Assembly: GCF_000198775.1 (NCBI RefSeq)
Contig: NC_014718.1
Coordinates: 405,880 to 469,879, forward strand
Length of the DNA stretch: 64,000 nucleotides
Source of the DNA: Mycetohabitans rhizoxinica HKI 454
Lineage (GTDB): Bacteria; Pseudomonadota; Gammaproteobacteria; Burkholderiales; Burkholderiaceae
Reading direction: 5' to 3'
Below are positions 13,307-22,493 of the stretch, in pieces. Positions within the stretch are counted from its first letter, which is position 1, and every line of letters begins with the position of its first letter. The position numbers and the translations under genes are program-made. The notes beneath the pieces are model-generated. The model was not told where the DNA came from, did not search any database, and worked only from the letters and a program-made list of their open reading frames with translations.

Positions 13307-13972
13307 GCGTGACGCCTCCTTACGTAAAGGTACTTCGAGGGTCGTAGCCAGCAGTCGAGTCGGCGAACGGGCGGATTTGGCACAGTCTACGCGAGTCCGG
13401 CCGAAACCGCGCCTTGGCGCTCCTTAGTCGCGGCGTCATCCCGCAGCGCGTGCTGCTCGCGCAGCAGCGTGGCCGCAAGCCCATGGAGCGATGCTGGGCG
13501 CACGTTGCACATCGTCCACCGGCATGCTTGCACGAGCGGACCCCACGCGATGTCTGAATAGGACGTTTACGTCGGTGCAACGCACCGGTAGACGAGCGCT
13601 AGCCGCTTAAGCTGATCACTGTCATCAGCTCCCCCTTCTGCCGCACAGGCGCTGGCACGCCAGTCTTACACTGAAAATGCGCGACGGCATGCGCGACATC
13701 CCGCTGCCTGCCCGGCAAGCAAGCCTCACCTTCGTCATGCAGATGATAGGCGACGCGCCCAATGCTGCAACCGACCACGGAGTACTGGACGCGTTACACC
13801 TGATGGTCACGACGCGCGATGCCGCCTCCGTCCCGTGGCTTGACAACGCCATAGCAGCGCGAAGAAACGTTCTGCATGAGGGCCGCTCACCCGCCTTGAC
13901 GACTTTCCGCTTGACCCTCACGCTACGTCAGGGCTCATCTTTTTGAAACGCTGGAAACGGAGGCAAAGGCAA
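13307..13972. other. Intergenic region between Rieske gene and MerR gene
   Basis: About 660 bases with overlapping open frames on both strands but no recognisable domain. It contains the divergent promoters of the Rieske and MerR-type genes. GGAGGC at 13959-13964 is the MerR ribosome binding site. Confidence 0.35.
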
Positions 13973-14998
13973 ATGCGCTTGACGGTGGGAGAGTTGGCCA
14001 AACGCAGCGGACTGACGGTACGCACGCTGCACCACTACGACGCGATCGGTTTGCTGAAGCCTTCGGCACGCTCCGAAGCGGGATACCGGCTTTATAGCCG
14101 CGACGACGTCGCGCGCCTGTACCAGATACATGCGCTGCGTCGCTTTGGCATGTCGCTCGCCGACATCGGAGCTTGCCTGGATCGGCCGGACCATTCGCTG
14201 GTAACTATCGTGCAACGCCAGATCGGCACGCTCGATGCACAACTTACGCAAGCGCGTCTGTTGCGCGAGCAGCTTGCGCGCCTGCACGAACAGTTGTTGG
14301 TGGGAACCGATCCAGACCAGTCAGACTGGCTAATCACTTTGGAGATGATCACCGTGTATGAAAAGTACTTTTCCGACGACGAACTGAATCGCTTGCCGCT
14401 GTACCGCCTCGACGAGGCGCGCGAAAACGAATGGCGCGAAGTGGTTGCGCAGGCGCGTGTGCTGATTACACAGGGCGTGCCACCGCAAAGCGACGACGCG
14501 CGAGCGCTAGCCAAGCGGTGGATGGCGATGGTGCAGCGCGACACCGGCGGCGATCCTCGACTACTCGCGAAGCTGAACCGGATGTACGAAGCCGAGCCCA
14601 CCATGCAGAGCAAGACTGGCATTTCGCCGGACCTACTGCAATATGTGCTGCAGGCGAGTTGGGAAACAAAAATGGCGTTGTACGAGAAATACCTACTGCC
14701 TGATGAAGTGCGTTACATGCGCGCACATTACAGTAAGCGCGCGCATGAGTGGCCGGAGCTGATCGGGGCATTGCGCACGCAGATCGAGCAAGGCGCCGAA
14801 CCGTCCGCCCCTGCGGTACGGCGCCTCGCACAACGCTGGCTTGAGCTGTTCCGTTCCTACGCCGGCGACGATCCTGCCACCCAGGCGCGCTTCAGGCTGG
14901 CACACGAGCAGGAACCGGAGCTGCTTGAGGACGCGTGGGCCGACGCGCCGATGCTCGACTTCCTGAAACGCGCGGTCGCCGCGGCCTCCCCCGCGTAA
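13973..14998 (+). CDS. MerR-family regulator with two TipAS ligand-binding domains
   Basis: The N-terminal 70 residues are a MerR winged helix (MRLTVGELAKRSGLTVRTLHHYD, then YRLYSRDDVARLYQIHALRRFGMS) and a coiled-coil dimerisation helix follows. Two similar helical TipAS-type domains make up the rest: one near EKYFSDDELNRLPLYRLD and one near EKYLLPDEVRYMRAHYSKRA. TipAS domains bind drug-like or peptide ligands, so this is likely a ligand-induced activator of an efflux or stress gene. The ATG at 13973 is preferred because GGAGGC lies eight bases upstream and the MerR domain begins there; ten extra in-frame residues upstream are not conserved. No obvious target gene adjoins it. Confidence 0.88.
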   Translation: MRLTVGELAKRSGLTVRTLHHYDAIGLLKPSARSEAGYRLYSRDDVARLYQIHALRRFGMSLADIGACLDRPDHSLVTIVQRQIGTLDAQLTQARLLREQLARLHEQLLVGTDPDQSDWLITLEMITVYEKYFSDDELNRLPLYRLDEARENEWREVVAQARVLITQGVPPQSDDARALAKRWMAMVQRDTGGDPRLLAKLNRMYEAEPTMQSKTGISPDLLQYVLQASWETKMALYEKYLLPDEVRYMRAHYSKRAHEWPELIGALRTQIEQGAEPSAPAVRRLAQRWLELFRSYAGDDPATQARFRLAHEQEPELLEDAWADAPMLDFLKRAVAAASPA

Positions 14999-15015
14999 CC
15001 ACCGCGGCCCGATCT

Positions 15016-15046
15016 CACGCCGGCTGCACGACAGGCTGCCGGCGTG
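15016..15046 (+). terminator. Hairpin after the MerR gene
   Basis: A perfect 9-bp stem (CACGCCGGC with GCCGGCGTG) and a 13-base loop lie 18 bases after the stop codon. There is no T-run, so it may act as a weak terminator or as an mRNA 3' end. Confidence 0.5.
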
Positions 15047-15129
15047 CCGCGACGGCAGCGTATCGCCACCGGTTTCATCGATCGCGCGCCATGCCGCCCG
15101 CGAGCGTTGCACGGCGACATCCCGCGGAA

Positions 15130-15395
15130 ACAGCGGTGCAGTCTCGTCGCCGTTGGAGTCCTCGATTGACCAGCAGGTCAGTCACCGCAACAATCTCACG
15201 CAGATGCCCGAGCACGACGCCGCGGCAGACTATGTCGCCCATACGAGCGCGCGACCACGCAAAGTCGGAACTAGTCGTTGCGATCGCCCCGAAACCGAGA
15301 AGTTGCAGATAGCGGATGCTCCCTACGGCTGATGCATTCGGTAAGACGACGCAGCCGGATTGATGCAGTTGTCGAAAGGCGGCGGTGCGGGACAT
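15130..15395 (-). pseudogene. PEP mutase/isocitrate lyase-family protein remnant
   Basis: The minus strand reads MSRTAAFRQLHQSGCVVLPN, then ASAVGSIRYLQLLGFGAIATTSS and LGHLREIVAVTDLLVN. This matches the first 80 residues of the isocitrate lyase/phosphoenolpyruvate mutase family found in Burkholderia. The metal-binding and catalytic parts further on are absent, because the frame degenerates after LLVN. The usual DVGS reads AVGS. Only a fragment of a roughly 260-residue enzyme is left. Confidence 0.7.
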
Positions 15396-15510
15396 TTCGT
15401 CTCTGTCTGCAAAGGGGTGGCGTAGTCCGGCACACATCGACCCGATGGCACGCCGGGGACCTGCCACGTCGATTAATGACCATTGTACATCCCGAGCCGG
15501 CGGCTCGATG

Positions 15511-15571
15511 TTCGCTTTCGAACCGCCTCCTTCGCGAATCAATCGTGCGCCAATGGCCGCTCCGTCATAGT
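15511..15571 (+). promoter_or_regulatory. Perfect PIP/hrpII box with -10 element
   Basis: TTCGC at 15511-15515 and TTCGC at 15531-15535 are separated by exactly 15 bases (TTCG-N16-TTCG). A CATAGT at 15566-15571 fits the YANNNT -10 consensus exactly 30 bases later. This is the full promoter architecture recognised by HrpB/HrpX-type AraC activators of type III secretion regulons. It faces the 58-aa gene starting at 15642, leaving a leader of about 60-65 bases. Confidence 0.75.
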
Positions 15572-15641
15572 GAGTGTCGCGGAGAACACCCGCGTACACA
15601 CCACTAGGGCCTTCTGGCCCCTACTTTGTTGGAGGATAGCA

Positions 15642-15818
15642 ATGAGTGTCAATGCTCCTGGCGCTGTGGCTTCTGGCGCTTTTAATAAGGATGATTTTGA
15701 TAAGAAATTTGATTCGATGACTGGCAAGCAAAAGGAGGCCTACCAAAAATTGGTTGACGAATTTAACCGAACCGCTTTTCAGGGAGCTGCTCCAAACTTG
15801 AAGCCCGCCCTCGACTAA
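15642..15818 (+). CDS. Small 58-aa protein behind a PIP box
   Basis: The protein has no family I recognise. It begins MSVNAPGAVASGAFNKDDFD, a Ser/Ala/Gly-rich, Leu-free N-terminus. A strongly charged helical middle (KKFDSMTGKQKEAYQKLVDE) and the tail APNLKPALD follow. It has no signal peptide, no membrane segment and no cysteine. GGAGG at 15631-15635 sits six bases before the ATG and a strong hairpin follows the stop, so it looks like a complete monocistronic gene. Codons are more A/T-rich than in the neighbours. The perfect PIP box upstream suggests control with a type III secretion system; the product could be a secreted small protein or pilus/translocon component. The function is unknown. 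Confidence 0.8.
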   Translation: MSVNAPGAVASGAFNKDDFDKKFDSMTGKQKEAYQKLVDEFNRTAFQGAAPNLKPALD

Positions 15819-15830
15819 CGCTAATACAGA

Positions 15831-15867
15831 CCAGCGACGCGTCCATGAACGACCGCCGCGTCGCTGG
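15831..15867 (+). terminator. Strong hairpin after the 58-aa gene
   Basis: A perfect 11-bp stem (CCAGCGACGCG with CGCGTCGCTGG) and a 15-base loop begin 12 bases after the stop codon. The T-run is poor (AAAACGCCTTT), so termination strength is uncertain, but the stem is far too good to be chance. Confidence 0.65.
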
Positions 15868-16468
15868 AAAACGCCTTTACGGTTGCGCGCTGTGTGGACC
15901 GTAAAGCACCTCTACAAAAGCCGCCCTGCATCGTTGAAACAGGTTACGTATCGACATAAGTAAAGTATCGACAAGGCATCCTCCGACGCAGTGGGTCGAG
16001 ATCCTTGCATTTCTATCACGAAACACCGCCGTCAAGCTTGCTGTACCGGACCACAGCATTGACCGCACCGGTTGTGGACTTTGGAAAGTCATGGCACGCG
16101 GCAAGCAGCGCCAGGATTCGATCGGTTACAGCCACGAAACGGGCCTCTTCCAACACTTGGGCGTCGTCGGGCAGCGGCAATTCGCTGCCCAGAAGCAACA
16201 CCAGCAGCTGCTGATGCGCTTCACCCGGAATGCCACGCCGTCCATTAGCGTCCGTTCATGGACAGCACCGCTGTGCAGCCCCAACGCGAGCAGCCCTGCG
16301 TGCGCTCTGACCAAGCGTCGCCATGCTCGAGCCTGCATAGCGTGCGGCTCCGGCGTTTGCCGCGATACCGGTGGGGCTTACCGCCAAGTTGAGGAAGCTA
16401 ATGATGTAGCGCATTCATTAGTGATACAAAATTTTAATGCAGCGCGACCGACAAGCGCAGCCATACAC
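15868..16468. other. Region without an assignable gene
   Basis: About 600 bases. A minus-strand stretch near 16016-16260 reads like protein (EAHQQLLVLLLGSELPLPDD, then ARFVAVTDRILALLAACHDF) but has no start or intact frame, and I cannot name its family. It is probably another decayed gene. Nothing else is evident. Confidence 0.35.
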
Positions 16469-16815
16469 CAATGAGCTGCTTGCCGAAGTTGTGCACAAGG
16501 ACACCGGCATTCGCACCGAGCGTTGACTAAGTCATGTCTTCATGATGGACGTGCCGGTCAATCCGGAGTCGCTGTTCATCACCGACGCGGTGGTCAATAT
16601 CTTCCGACCTCGAACGCTTTCCGAGCTTGAGTAGAAAGCAGACATCGTGCGCAACGCGATTGAGCTTATGCAGACGCCGCGGATCGACCGGCTCAACATG
16701 GCGATCTTTTCCGCCATGAAAACCGTGACGTCGAAGATCCCCTCGACGATCAATGCAGCCGCATTGTGCCGTATCTTGGCACACCGACCGGTCAAAGACA
16801 ACAGGGCAGCGCCGT
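16469..16815 (+). pseudogene. Phosphate acetyl/butyryltransferase remnant with two stop codons
   Basis: The plus strand reads TNELLAEVVHKDTGIRTER, stop, LSHVFMMDVPVNPESLFITD, then a segment ending LSELE, a TAG stop, and KADIVRNAIELMQTPRIDR followed by ETVT-like TVTSKIPSTINAAALC. This is the middle of the phosphotransacetylase domain found in bifunctional enoyl-CoA hydratase/phosphate acetyltransferases. The first stop (TGA) replaces an Arg and the second (TAG) a Gln. The enoyl-CoA hydratase part and the C-terminus are missing. The product would be non-functional. Confidence 0.8.
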
Positions 16816-16848
16816 CCCCTGCGTCGGTGTTGGCAGGCATGCTTAGCC

Positions 16849-17000
16849 GGACACGATGAAACGCAATACAGGCCATCGCGCCTGCTAGCACACTCACGCC
16901 AGCTGCCAAACATGCGAACGGCCAACCCCAGTGCAACGCAACATACGGCAGCAGCGCCACCGACAACGTGCCGCCCTCGGTAAATAGCGAGGCACACCAA
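16849..17000 (-). pseudogene. MFS transporter fragment
   Basis: A short minus-strand piece, FTEGGTLSVALLPYVALHWG followed by WPFACLAAGVSVLAGAMACI, has the two-helix pattern and loop of a major facilitator transporter. It ends in unrelated sequence and overlaps no start codon. It sits tail to tail with the phosphotransacetylase remnant and is too short to work. Confidence 0.5.
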
Positions 17001-17021
17001 ACTGTAATAAAGTGTTGGTGT

Positions 17022-17049
17022 TATCATGGTACAAAAAACTACCATGGTA
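17022..17049. promoter_or_regulatory. Pair of 10-bp palindromes, possible operator
   Basis: TATCATGGTA at 17022-17031 and TACCATGGTA at 17040-17049 are near-identical palindromes with an 8-base A-rich spacer. Centre-to-centre distance is 18 bases. The layout looks like a double operator for a dimeric repressor, but no intact gene starts nearby except the EamA transporter 220 bases downstream. Confidence 0.35.
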
Positions 17050-17271
17050 AATGGCGAGTCTACCCATAGGCTGCCCTTCACAACAAGCCAGCGGCTGTTG
17101 CGCTTACCATGCTTTATCCGCCGAAAGCATAACCGCCTCCGCTGACCCCATCAATACTGCTCGCGCTTTCGCATAATCTGCTCACAGTGGCGCTTGACTA
17201 GTTGCCCTTGTTCCATCCGGACTTGCCGATGCGTGCAACGTGCAATGCCGGTCACCCGGCGAAGGCTCCGC

Positions 17272-18201
17272 ATGATCTCCCGAGCGGTGTTCGACTTGAC
17301 CAACTTGCTGGCGCTCGCAGCACTTTGGAGTACGTCGTTTCTTTTCGTGCGCATCGGCGTTGCGGAGTTCGGCGTCGTGCCGATGGTGGCGTTGCGTGTG
17401 TCGATCGGCGCCACTTTCTTAATCGCGCTATTGATCGTGCGGAAAGGCGTGAAGGGAAAATGGCGTGATTCGCAACGCAAGCTTTGGCCGTTGTTCGTGC
17501 TCGGCGTGCTGAATGCTGCGATGCCATTCTGCCTGTTTGCGTATGCCGTGCCCGCTCTGTCGGTGGGTCTGGCCTGCGTGATCAACGCGACCGCACCGCT
17601 GTGGGGCGCGCTGGTCGCGTTCCTTTGGCTCGGGGACCGGCCCAGCATCATGCGAATCGCCGGCATCGTGCTCTGTTTCGCCGGTGTGACGCTAATGGTC
17701 GGGAGTCAGATCAGTGCAACGGGCAGCTTCGCAGGTGCAGCGCCATGCGCGCGGACCACTGCACTAGCCGCCGGCGCGGGACTCACCGCCACGGCGCTGC
17801 TGGGTATCGCGGCCAACTATACGAAGCGCTATTTGTCCGACATCGACCCCTTGATGATCGCGGCCGGCAGTCTCGTCGGCGCATCGATCGTACTGCTGCC
17901 GCTCGCCGCATGGGCATGGCCAGCGACACCGGTTTCGATGCGGGCGTGGCTCGCGGCGCTGGCACTCGGCGTGGCGTGCACCGGCGTTGCCTATGTGCTG
18001 TATTTTCGCCTGCTCAATGCCGGCGGGCCGGCTCAGGCGATGACCGCCACATTCGTAATCCCGGTGTTCGGCATCCTTTGGGATTCACTATTTCTTTCGT
18101 TATCCATATCAATATGGATGATAGAATGCTGCGCCATTGTGCTGGTCGGTACCGTCTTGGCCACGGGCTTGATCGAGCGACTGCGTCCACAGCTATCATA
18201 G
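17272..18201 (+). CDS. EamA/DMT-family inner-membrane transporter
   Basis: A ten-helix drug/metabolite transporter made of two EamA repeats. The first repeat is clear (LLALAALWSTSFLFVRIG, then VPALSVGLACVINATAPLWG and the conserved FLWLGDRPS). The second runs from GAGLTATALLGIAANYTKRY to GTVLATGLIERL. The protein would export a metabolite or amino acid using the proton gradient; the substrate cannot be told. I start at the ATG at 17272 (MISRAVFDLTNLLALAALW) because 26 upstream in-frame residues are Cys/Arg-rich and unlike the family. In the last repeat the usual FLGE motif reads FLSLS, a possible sign of drift. Confidence 0.85.
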   Translation: MISRAVFDLTNLLALAALWSTSFLFVRIGVAEFGVVPMVALRVSIGATFLIALLIVRKGVKGKWRDSQRKLWPLFVLGVLNAAMPFCLFAYAVPALSVGLACVINATAPLWGALVAFLWLGDRPSIMRIAGIVLCFAGVTLMVGSQISATGSFAGAAPCARTTALAAGAGLTATALLGIAANYTKRYLSDIDPLMIAAGSLVGASIVLLPLAAWAWPATPVSMRAWLAALALGVACTGVAYVLYFRLLNAGGPAQAMTATFVIPVFGILWDSLFLSLSISIWMIECCAIVLVGTVLATGLIERLRPQLS

Positions 18202-21374: not shown

Positions 21375-22493
21375 ATGGATTTTGATCTGCATGCCGCTTT
21401 GAACGACTACCCAGCCTACGTTTGTGCGTTGGAGTCGTGTCCGCAGCCTGCCGCATCGGCCTCTCCGCCGACATTGAAACCAGCAAGCGGTGGGCTGGTG
21501 AACCCGTCGGCTAGCCGGCCCACGACATATCATAACCTGCCGTCCGAACTCATCCAGCAGATCGGTGACTACGTGCCCGTCCAAGACGTGGGAAATTTTT
21601 CAGCAGTCGATCGTCGTACGTATCATGCGATGCACAGTCGGCGCGTAGTCTACCGCTACTGGCAACGAGCCAACCAAGTCGTCAGTCTCGCGTCAGTCAA
21701 CCAGCTGCTCAATGAGATGGATGGCACGCTCGCCCATCCGGCGCAGCACATCGAGCCGCTTGAGGCGTTGCGCCAACATTTGGACGCGTTGCCGTATCAC
21801 GAGCAAGGCGAAGCCTTCAAGCGCATATACGCGGCGGCGCAGCGCATTCCGAAGGATGGCGTGCAGATACAAAAAGCGCTGTTATTGTACTCATTGCCCG
21901 GTTTTAATTGGAACCATCGGGATGAATTATTCGACTTCGCTTACGCGATGGCGCAGCGGCGTGCACCCCAGGAGGATAATGTCTGGACGGAACTGGCTAA
22001 CTGTTTGATATTTTTGTTGGCTGGCTCAGCTGAGTTTGTCGAGCGTTATCAGGCGCTCGTGGCTCGGCTTGGGTCCTTGAGGGTGTCCGAGCAAGCGGAG
22101 CTGATCCCGGTATTGTGTAGACAAATGCTTGGCTTTGGTAGAAGAGACGACCGCCTCCCTGGGCTGTATGCAGTGTTACGCGAACACGCGTTGCAGCTGC
22201 CGCGCTCTGTTCAAGGCGCATCGATTGGCATGCTAGCCAGTGCCATATGGGTTTTGCCGCACGCGGAGCGGCTCGCACAGTACACGCAGCTGCGTGATGT
22301 GGCGCTGTCGCTGCCTGACGAGCAGTTGGAAATTGCGCTATGCTTTCTTTCAAAGGGGTGGGCAGAGTTACCGCGCGAGCATCACGCATATGGACTCCAG
22401 TTACTGGAGCCGGCATTGCTGCGCCTACTGCCAGCACAGCGCGCGCAGTCCGTACTCAGCCAATTAGAGGATGTTATGAAATTGTATGAATAA
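21375..22493 (+). CDS. F-box domain protein, candidate host-directed effector
   Basis: The 372-residue protein begins MDFDLHAALNDYPAYVCALE and has a Pro/Ser/Ala-rich linker. An F-box motif follows at about residues 52-95: TYHNLPSELIQQIGDYVPVQ, then DVGNFSAVDRRTYHAM. In eukaryotes the F-box docks substrates onto Skp1-Cullin ubiquitin ligases. Bacteria with F-box proteins, such as Ralstonia GALA effectors and Legionella effectors, deliver them into host cells. The remaining 250 residues are predicted all-helical, with repeating pairs of helices (for example LRQHLDALPYHEQGEAFKRI and YTQLRDVALSLPDEQLEIAL), likely a substrate-binding solenoid. The start is set by the conserved MDFD shared with the paralogue at 31.0 kb. 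No Skp-like or secretion gene is adjacent. Function as an effector is inferred. Confidence 0.8.
   Translation: MDFDLHAALNDYPAYVCALESCPQPAASASPPTLKPASGGLVNPSASRPTTYHNLPSELIQQIGDYVPVQDVGNFSAVDRRTYHAMHSRRVVYRYWQRANQVVSLASVNQLLNEMDGTLAHPAQHIEPLEALRQHLDALPYHEQGEAFKRIYAAAQRIPKDGVQIQKALLLYSLPGFNWNHRDELFDFAYAMAQRRAPQEDNVWTELANCLIFLLAGSAEFVERYQALVARLGSLRVSEQAELIPVLCRQMLGFGRRDDRLPGLYAVLREHALQLPRSVQGASIGMLASAIWVLPHAERLAQYTQLRDVALSLPDEQLEIALCFLSKGWAELPREHHAYGLQLLEPALLRLLPAQRAQSVLSQLEDVMKLYE

Follow-up and report, generated by a model that had tools for sequence, protein, structure and literature searches.

A perfect PIP-box promoter ahead of a fast-changing 58-residue frame: a candidate effector gene and probable orphan member of the HrpB regulon in Mycetohabitans rhizoxinica

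Introduction

Does a PIP-type promoter without mismatch, standing ahead of a frame of only 58 codons in Mycetohabitans rhizoxinica HKI 454, mark a working gene of the type III secretion system (T3SS) regulon, and what might the product of such a gene do? According to the available text of PMC10746252, the type III effectors that establish the Rhizopus-Mycetohabitans symbiosis are still to be discovered. In strain B13, whose T3SS genes are expressed, the accessible part of PMC7482071 reports 59 over-expressed T3SS effector candidates that were predicted with EffectiveT3, more than one third of them of unknown function. The effector lists of PMC3102044 and PMC7482071, as described in the portions available, both rest on EffectiveT3 run on predicted proteins. 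Such an approach may handle very short ORFs poorly. PIP-type promoters have been published for this group (PMC8565462, PMC11261895, main-text portions), and TTCG-N16-TTCG is described in the available part of PMC11261895 upstream of intact btl genes of Mycetohabitans.

The window analyzed here is a stretch of 64,000 nt, positions 405,880 to 469,879 of NC_014718.1, which is an 822-kb contig in a 3.75-Mb genome of three contigs. All positions given below are window-based unless stated otherwise. A previous, sequence-only reading of this window had described a perfect PIP box driving a 58-residue gene of no known family, and it had pointed to the correct genus.

Results

The promoter, the leader and the frame

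The promoter was found to fit TTCGB-N15-TTCGB-N30-YANNNT without mismatch over 15511..15571, which confirms the perfect box of the sequence-only reading. The good ribosome-binding site and the short ORF claimed with it are equally present, as GGAGG and as a 58-codon frame that starts with the ATG at 15642. The features of the locus are the following:

15511..15535, + strand: PIP/hrpII box TTCGC-N15-TTCGC, half-sites at 15511-15515 and 15531-15535, an exact consensus match
15566..15571, + strand: -10 element CATAGT (YANNNT), 30 bases past the box
15581..15641, + strand: leader, with a small hairpin at 15607-15620 and the GGAGG ribosome-binding site at 15631-15635
15642..15818, + strand: 58-aa ORF, candidate T3SS substrate; WP_157864538.1, hypothetical protein, in B47 and B12
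15831..15867, + strand: 3' hairpin with 11 perfect pairs and a 15-base loop, z -3.89

A sigma-70 scan returned no site. With regard to the frequency of the box, TTCGB-N15-TTCGB occurs five times in the window against 2.54 expected (five were reached in 11 of 100 shuffles), and the full strict pattern with its -10 element occurs once against 0.115 expected, at least one match being present in 11% of 200 simulated sequences. A single strict match in 64,000 nt does not exceed chance, and by itself it cannot carry the claim. The promoter and leader DNA is single-copy in the genome, the remaining eight of nine matches being 14-26 bases long with E values of 0.28 or worse, so there is no sign of a promoter shuffled onto other genes.

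Conservation of the switch and rewriting of the protein body

The locus was found at 99.6-99.8% identity over 501 bases on three M. rhizoxinica megaplasmids (B47, B12 and B49), in all of which the ORF is annotated as a hypothetical protein. B49 differs once over these 501 bases, and this difference changes an amino acid of the ORF (K29E). A divergent copy in an equivalent neighborhood is present in Mycetohabitans sp. B8 (G001, locus L031). In this copy (L031:5872), both half-sites and the N15 spacing are identical, the -10 element is again CATAGT at an identical spacing from the box, and the ribosome-binding site and start are exactly kept. From the box to the start, 125 of 135 aligned bases are identical with 2 gap columns (34/36 for the box region, then 22/25, 14/15 and, for the leader, 55/59), and the first three codons are unchanged (9/9). 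The upstream DNA at 15300-15490 retains 152 of 191 bases with 23 gap columns, the middle of the ORF 58 of 108 with 42 gap columns, the end of the ORF (15780-15818) 31 of 39, and the 3' side 40 of 52 with 35 gap columns. The B8 ORF is open over 64 codons, shares the start and keeps the C-terminal motif. This alignment shows a promoter, leader and start that have hardly changed between the window and B8, ahead of a protein body rewritten in frame. Since the ORF is present on the window's replicon and on three M. rhizoxinica megaplasmids, and is rewritten in B8, the 58-aa frame looks like a real gene.

To judge by the same alignment, conservation of the box in B8 is stronger evidence than the pattern match. 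At 0.115 chance matches per 64 kb, several are expected per genome, which would suit a fortuitous PIP match ahead of an ordinary small gene that has no part in the T3SS. This is nevertheless very improbable, given that the box region is among the best-conserved parts of the locus, in contrast to the upstream DNA, and that the ORF lies on the fitting strand at a fitting distance.

The leader hairpin at 15607-15620 is GC-rich and is followed by CTACTTTGTT directly ahead of the ribosome-binding site. It scores terminator-like (one found, 1.0 expected) and is a possible attenuator candidate; in B8 a hairpin stands at the matching place with an altered loop. The fold of the window leader is ordinary (z -1.47, 19 of 200 shuffles being equally good), and that of the B8 leader has z -2.43, with only 3 of 200 shuffles equally good. 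At the 3' side, the strong hairpin that had been ascribed to a gene ending at 15818 does follow the ORF, but it sits beyond that end; it has no T-run and was not called as a terminator. Its B8 counterpart keeps 10 of the 11 pairs; in one of these both bases have changed, and another is a G-T pair. The lowest-energy fold of a longer B8 3' stretch is a different one (z -1.67), and the retained pairs are thin evidence for the hairpin. A highly conserved leader with a hairpin, the fold score of the B8 leader and the pairs kept in the 3' hairpin could also be explained by a functional RNA, either an HrpB-controlled small RNA or an attenuator leader, to which the ORF would be secondary. We regard this as highly unlikely, as the ORF has stayed open despite insertions and deletions, the ribosome-binding site and start are exactly kept, the window leader folds in an ordinary way, and the 3' hairpin lacks a T-run.

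Neighboring frames

Upstream of the gene, a PEP-mutase-like remnant (15078-15599, - strand; PF13714, E 5.6e-9, the first 73 of 240 profile positions) diverges from it and crosses the box on the opposite strand. A short frame at 16019-16201 (- strand) has a weak match to the C-terminal part of DUF3088 (E 0.011, below the cut-off) and is probably also a remnant; a DUF3088 family protein is annotated at the corresponding place in B47, B12 and B49. The MerR-family regulator gene at 13943-14998 (+ strand) is annotated whole in B47, B12 and B49, and only about its first 280 bases align in B8 (L031:5275-5600). A 372-aa ORF at 21375-22493 (+ strand) weakly matches the F-box-like profile PF12937 (E 0.066, below the cut-off) and is not near the sole strict PIP match of the window; an F-box-like candidate effector is reported for Mycetohabitans sp. 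B13 in the available text of PMC7482071.

For comparisons of composition, a background of 87 uncut CDSs was taken from three B47 stretches, from which five cut CDSs and one resistance-gene row had been dropped; without the gene itself, it comprises 86. At 45.8%, the G+C content of the ORF lies below the CDS median (61.7%), and one of the 86 background CDSs is equally low. Low G+C content is common among effector genes. Together with the gene remnants on either side, it would also fit what remains of the 5' part of a larger effector gene, still transcribed and no longer functional. This explanation is improbable, since few parts of the ORF are better kept in B8 than its stop position and C-terminal motif, and since all six aligned members of the family, representing at least the rhizoxinica and sp. 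B8 lineages, have lengths of 58-64 aa.

Product and family

The product has a mass of 6.3 kDa and a pI of 6.1, and contains neither Cys nor Trp. Protein searches added five sequences: P0001 (58 aa, 97%), P0002 (from B8), P0003 (64 aa), and P0004 and P0005 (61 aa each). The MSV start and an ASGA motif are invariant in the six aligned members, as are a Phe, a Lys and an Ala in the middle and a Phe, a Gln, an Ala, a Leu-Lys pair and the final Asp near the end; APNLK is found in five of the six. The family is mildly acidic, with pI values of 4.8-6.1.

The N-terminus had been described as rich in Ser, Ala and Gly and free of Leu, and hence as fitting a secreted substrate. The absence of Leu holds, the first Leu being residue 37, and Ser, Ala and Gly account for 9 of residues 1-25 (a proportion at least as high is found in 9 of the 86 background CDSs). 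The richness in Ser does not hold, as Ser accounts for 3 of the 50 N-terminal residues (6%), a share matched or exceeded by 42 of the 86 CDSs. The first 25 residues are free of Leu in 10 of the 86 CDSs, and this feature is combined with an equally high Ser, Ala and Gly content in one. Across the six family members, the first 25 residues are free of Leu in four, whereas P0004 and P0005 have three Leu there; Ser makes up 6-14% of the first 50 residues, and position 4 is acidic in four members (Asp in P0002-P0005). The N-terminal features of the product thus appear mildly unusual. As an argument for secretion they are weak, considering the frequency of Leu-free starts in the background and the early Leu residues in two of the six relatives, and the composition decides neither for nor against secretion.

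AlphaFold2, run on the six sequences, predicts with low confidence an unstructured stretch (residues 1-15) followed by helices at 16-25 and 28-47. The model is poor (mean pLDDT 60.7, pTM 0.29). With regard to a co-chaperone of the YscE/PscE type, no sequence match was found in the PDB, and the model is too weak to support a comparison of folds.

In agreement with the claim that the product belongs to no known family, none was matched in the libraries searched: Pfam, NCBIfam (above its cut-off) and the PDB gave no convincing relative, known effectors included. An NCBIfam match of P0002 was rejected (E 0.02, 13.5 bits against a cut-off of 900). A search of the protein database with E values up to 1, by a method that reaches relatives with short exact shared words, returned matches within the family only. 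When 398 genomes of the taxonomic family were searched with a profile, the matches were limited to the genome itself, B8 and two weak matches in another genus, whose E values (0.0046 and 0.01 per genome) are at chance level over 398 genomes. Both were rejected; in the one with clear surroundings (L030), the match is on the minus strand, antisense to a purL-like ORF. Single-protein scans of the genome and viral contig sets found no relative, and a profile scan of the genome contig set returned B8 alone.

Distribution within the genus

Among eight whole genomes of the genus, the gene was found by both DNA and profile searches in its own genome and in B8 only, and not in the other six; single-protein searches gave its own copy, besides a match in G006 at E 0.76. 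The neighboring transporter stretch was matched by eight Mycetohabitans megaplasmid records. In seven the match covers most of the stretch; in the remaining one, B60, the identity is 69%. The gene is present on three of these eight records; for the five that lack it, the search covered the plasmid records. Two M. endofungorum loci (L026 and L027) match parts of the 3' flank and lack a counterpart of the block in which the gene lies. The B60 locus shows no match whatever to 13900-17300 and is hence uninformative on the absence of the gene. NZ_CP132745.1, the megaplasmid record of B13/HKI 0402, has no match to the gene within that plasmid record. Conservation of the ORF in close relatives, by which the sequence-only reading had proposed to judge the gene, is therefore seen in part: it extends to M. 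rhizoxinica and sp. B8 and does not extend to five of the eight megaplasmid records and six of the eight genus genomes.

The gene is accessory, and its patchy presence in the genus is more readily expected of an accessory effector than of a core component. A needle or pilin subunit of the T3SS would be a poor fit, as the gene is located about 318 kb from the FHIPEP gene and is unmatched on five of the eight megaplasmid records, that of B13 included. Other systems include needle co-chaperones of about 65-80 aa, and the small size, the pI range and the predicted helices of the family would suit a small helical co-chaperone or switch protein, that is, a T3SS helper that is activated by HrpB and not itself secreted. 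Such a helper is unlikely, given the absence of a family match and given that the distance from the T3SS gene, the accessory distribution and a body far more variable than the promoter are unsuited to the partner of a conserved machine.

T3SS genes, regulators and other boxes

The replicon of the window carries a T3SS cluster, with the FHIPEP gene at C1:739456-741444 and sctU-, ATPase- and secretin-like ORFs, read by eye, beside it. An ORF for a 484-aa AraC-type regulator (Pfam HTH_18 match at C1:727852-728100) adjoins the secretin-like ORF, which is also flanked by an ORF resembling an OmpR-type regulator (by eye). From their position and type, these two are likely HrpB and HrpG, respectively. 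A search for the same box near hrp genes, which the earlier reading had proposed, gave three strict matches (N30 or N31) in 39 kb around the T3SS genes, against 0.10 expected, a number reached in none of 200 simulations. Of these, the match at L023:65 falls within an ORF and could be accidental. As a positive control, a TAL-like effector gene of B47 showed TTCGT-N15-TTCGC-N30-CAAAGT upstream of its start, in line with the available text of PMC11261895. Among the 87 uncut B47 CDSs, the 58-aa gene is one of only two that are preceded by a strict match at a distance of up to 400 bases.

Several other genes were noted in this context. A gene for a 110-aa hypothetical protein (L032:49035-49367, - strand; 149035-149367 of the B47 megaplasmid) has a strict PIP box whose -10 element ends 37 bases before the start, and is a candidate for another member of the regulon. 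Adjoining the T3SS cluster are a 222-aa ORF with degenerate internal repeats, seen by eye (L022:8858-9526, + strand), and a 1124-aa ORF without a Pfam match (L023:7586-10960, + strand). An AWR gene is placed in the T3SS cluster by PMC10746252, in the part available, and may correspond to the 1124-aa ORF.

Discussion

This analysis suggests a working accessory gene at this locus that HrpB activates as part of the T3SS regulon and whose product is most likely exported by the Hrp T3SS and acts on the fungal host, an overall reading that we hold to be somewhat better than even. Its parts differ in strength. The promoter elements, the ORF, their conservation and the regulon context are established from the sequence itself. 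Dependence of the gene on HrpB is very probable by analogy with the regulon in other genera, and secretion of the product through the T3SS is reasonably probable. HrpB control is also possible for products that are not secreted. As a core part of the machine would be expected to be less patchy in distribution and less variable, a secreted accessory protein or an effector appears most likely. For a translocated effector, a length of 58 aa would be exceptionally small.

In mechanistic terms, the AraC-type activator HrpB would bind the two TTCG half-sites, as in the regulon of other genera, and would bring RNA polymerase to the -10 element, which lies 30 bases beyond the box. The resulting short mRNA would be translated from the ATG at 15642 via the strong ribosome-binding site into the 6.3-kDa protein, in which one or two helices would follow a flexible N-terminus. 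This product may then leave through the Hrp T3SS and act at or in the fungal host, as a very small effector or a secreted accessory. Secretion and action on the host would account for a fast-changing body behind a nearly fixed switch.

The HrpB/hrpII-box regulon of Ralstonia solanacearum and Burkholderia (TTCG-N16-TTCG) shares with the 58-aa gene the box and the published -10 spacing, and the M. rhizoxinica genome likewise has an AraC-type activator gene beside its T3SS. The 58-aa gene differs in that the libraries searched gave no known family for its product, and its dependence on HrpB is predicted. The published search pattern for PIP-box T3SS genes of Burkholderia sensu lato, as given in main-text portions, is fitted exactly by the promoter, whereas no such small orphan gene is named in these portions. 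With the Btl/MTAL TAL-like effectors of Mycetohabitans, of which one btl-type gene was examined, the gene shares the N30-YANNNT promoter architecture. These effectors differ in being large repeat proteins, and a sequence relation to the 58-aa product is neither apparent nor expected. The candidates in the available text of PMC7482071 resemble the product in being Mycetohabitans-restricted proteins of unknown function and plausible T3SS substrates; with no match on the B13 megaplasmid record, the gene is probably not among them. No paper naming the gene was found by searching for its accession (WP_157864538) or for the genus together with the PIP box, and an earlier listing in a supplement is possible. 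The gene is annotated but unnamed, and its promoter is of a kind already known; we regard it as a probable orphan gene of the HrpB regulon and a candidate effector.

More tentatively, at slightly less than even likelihood, we propose that the gene represents a Mycetohabitans-restricted family of type III secreted microproteins of about 6 kDa that are used on the fungal host, in which the regulatory DNA is nearly fixed and the body has been rewritten by host-driven selection. The skeleton kept in such a family would, with the same reserve, comprise the MSV start, ASGA, a few single residues and the C-terminal end. A conserved hrp-type promoter joined to a 58-aa ORF provides a concrete and easily tested effector candidate for a fungal endosymbiont, and it suggests a rule by which others may be sought: a conserved PIP promoter followed by a fast-changing short ORF.
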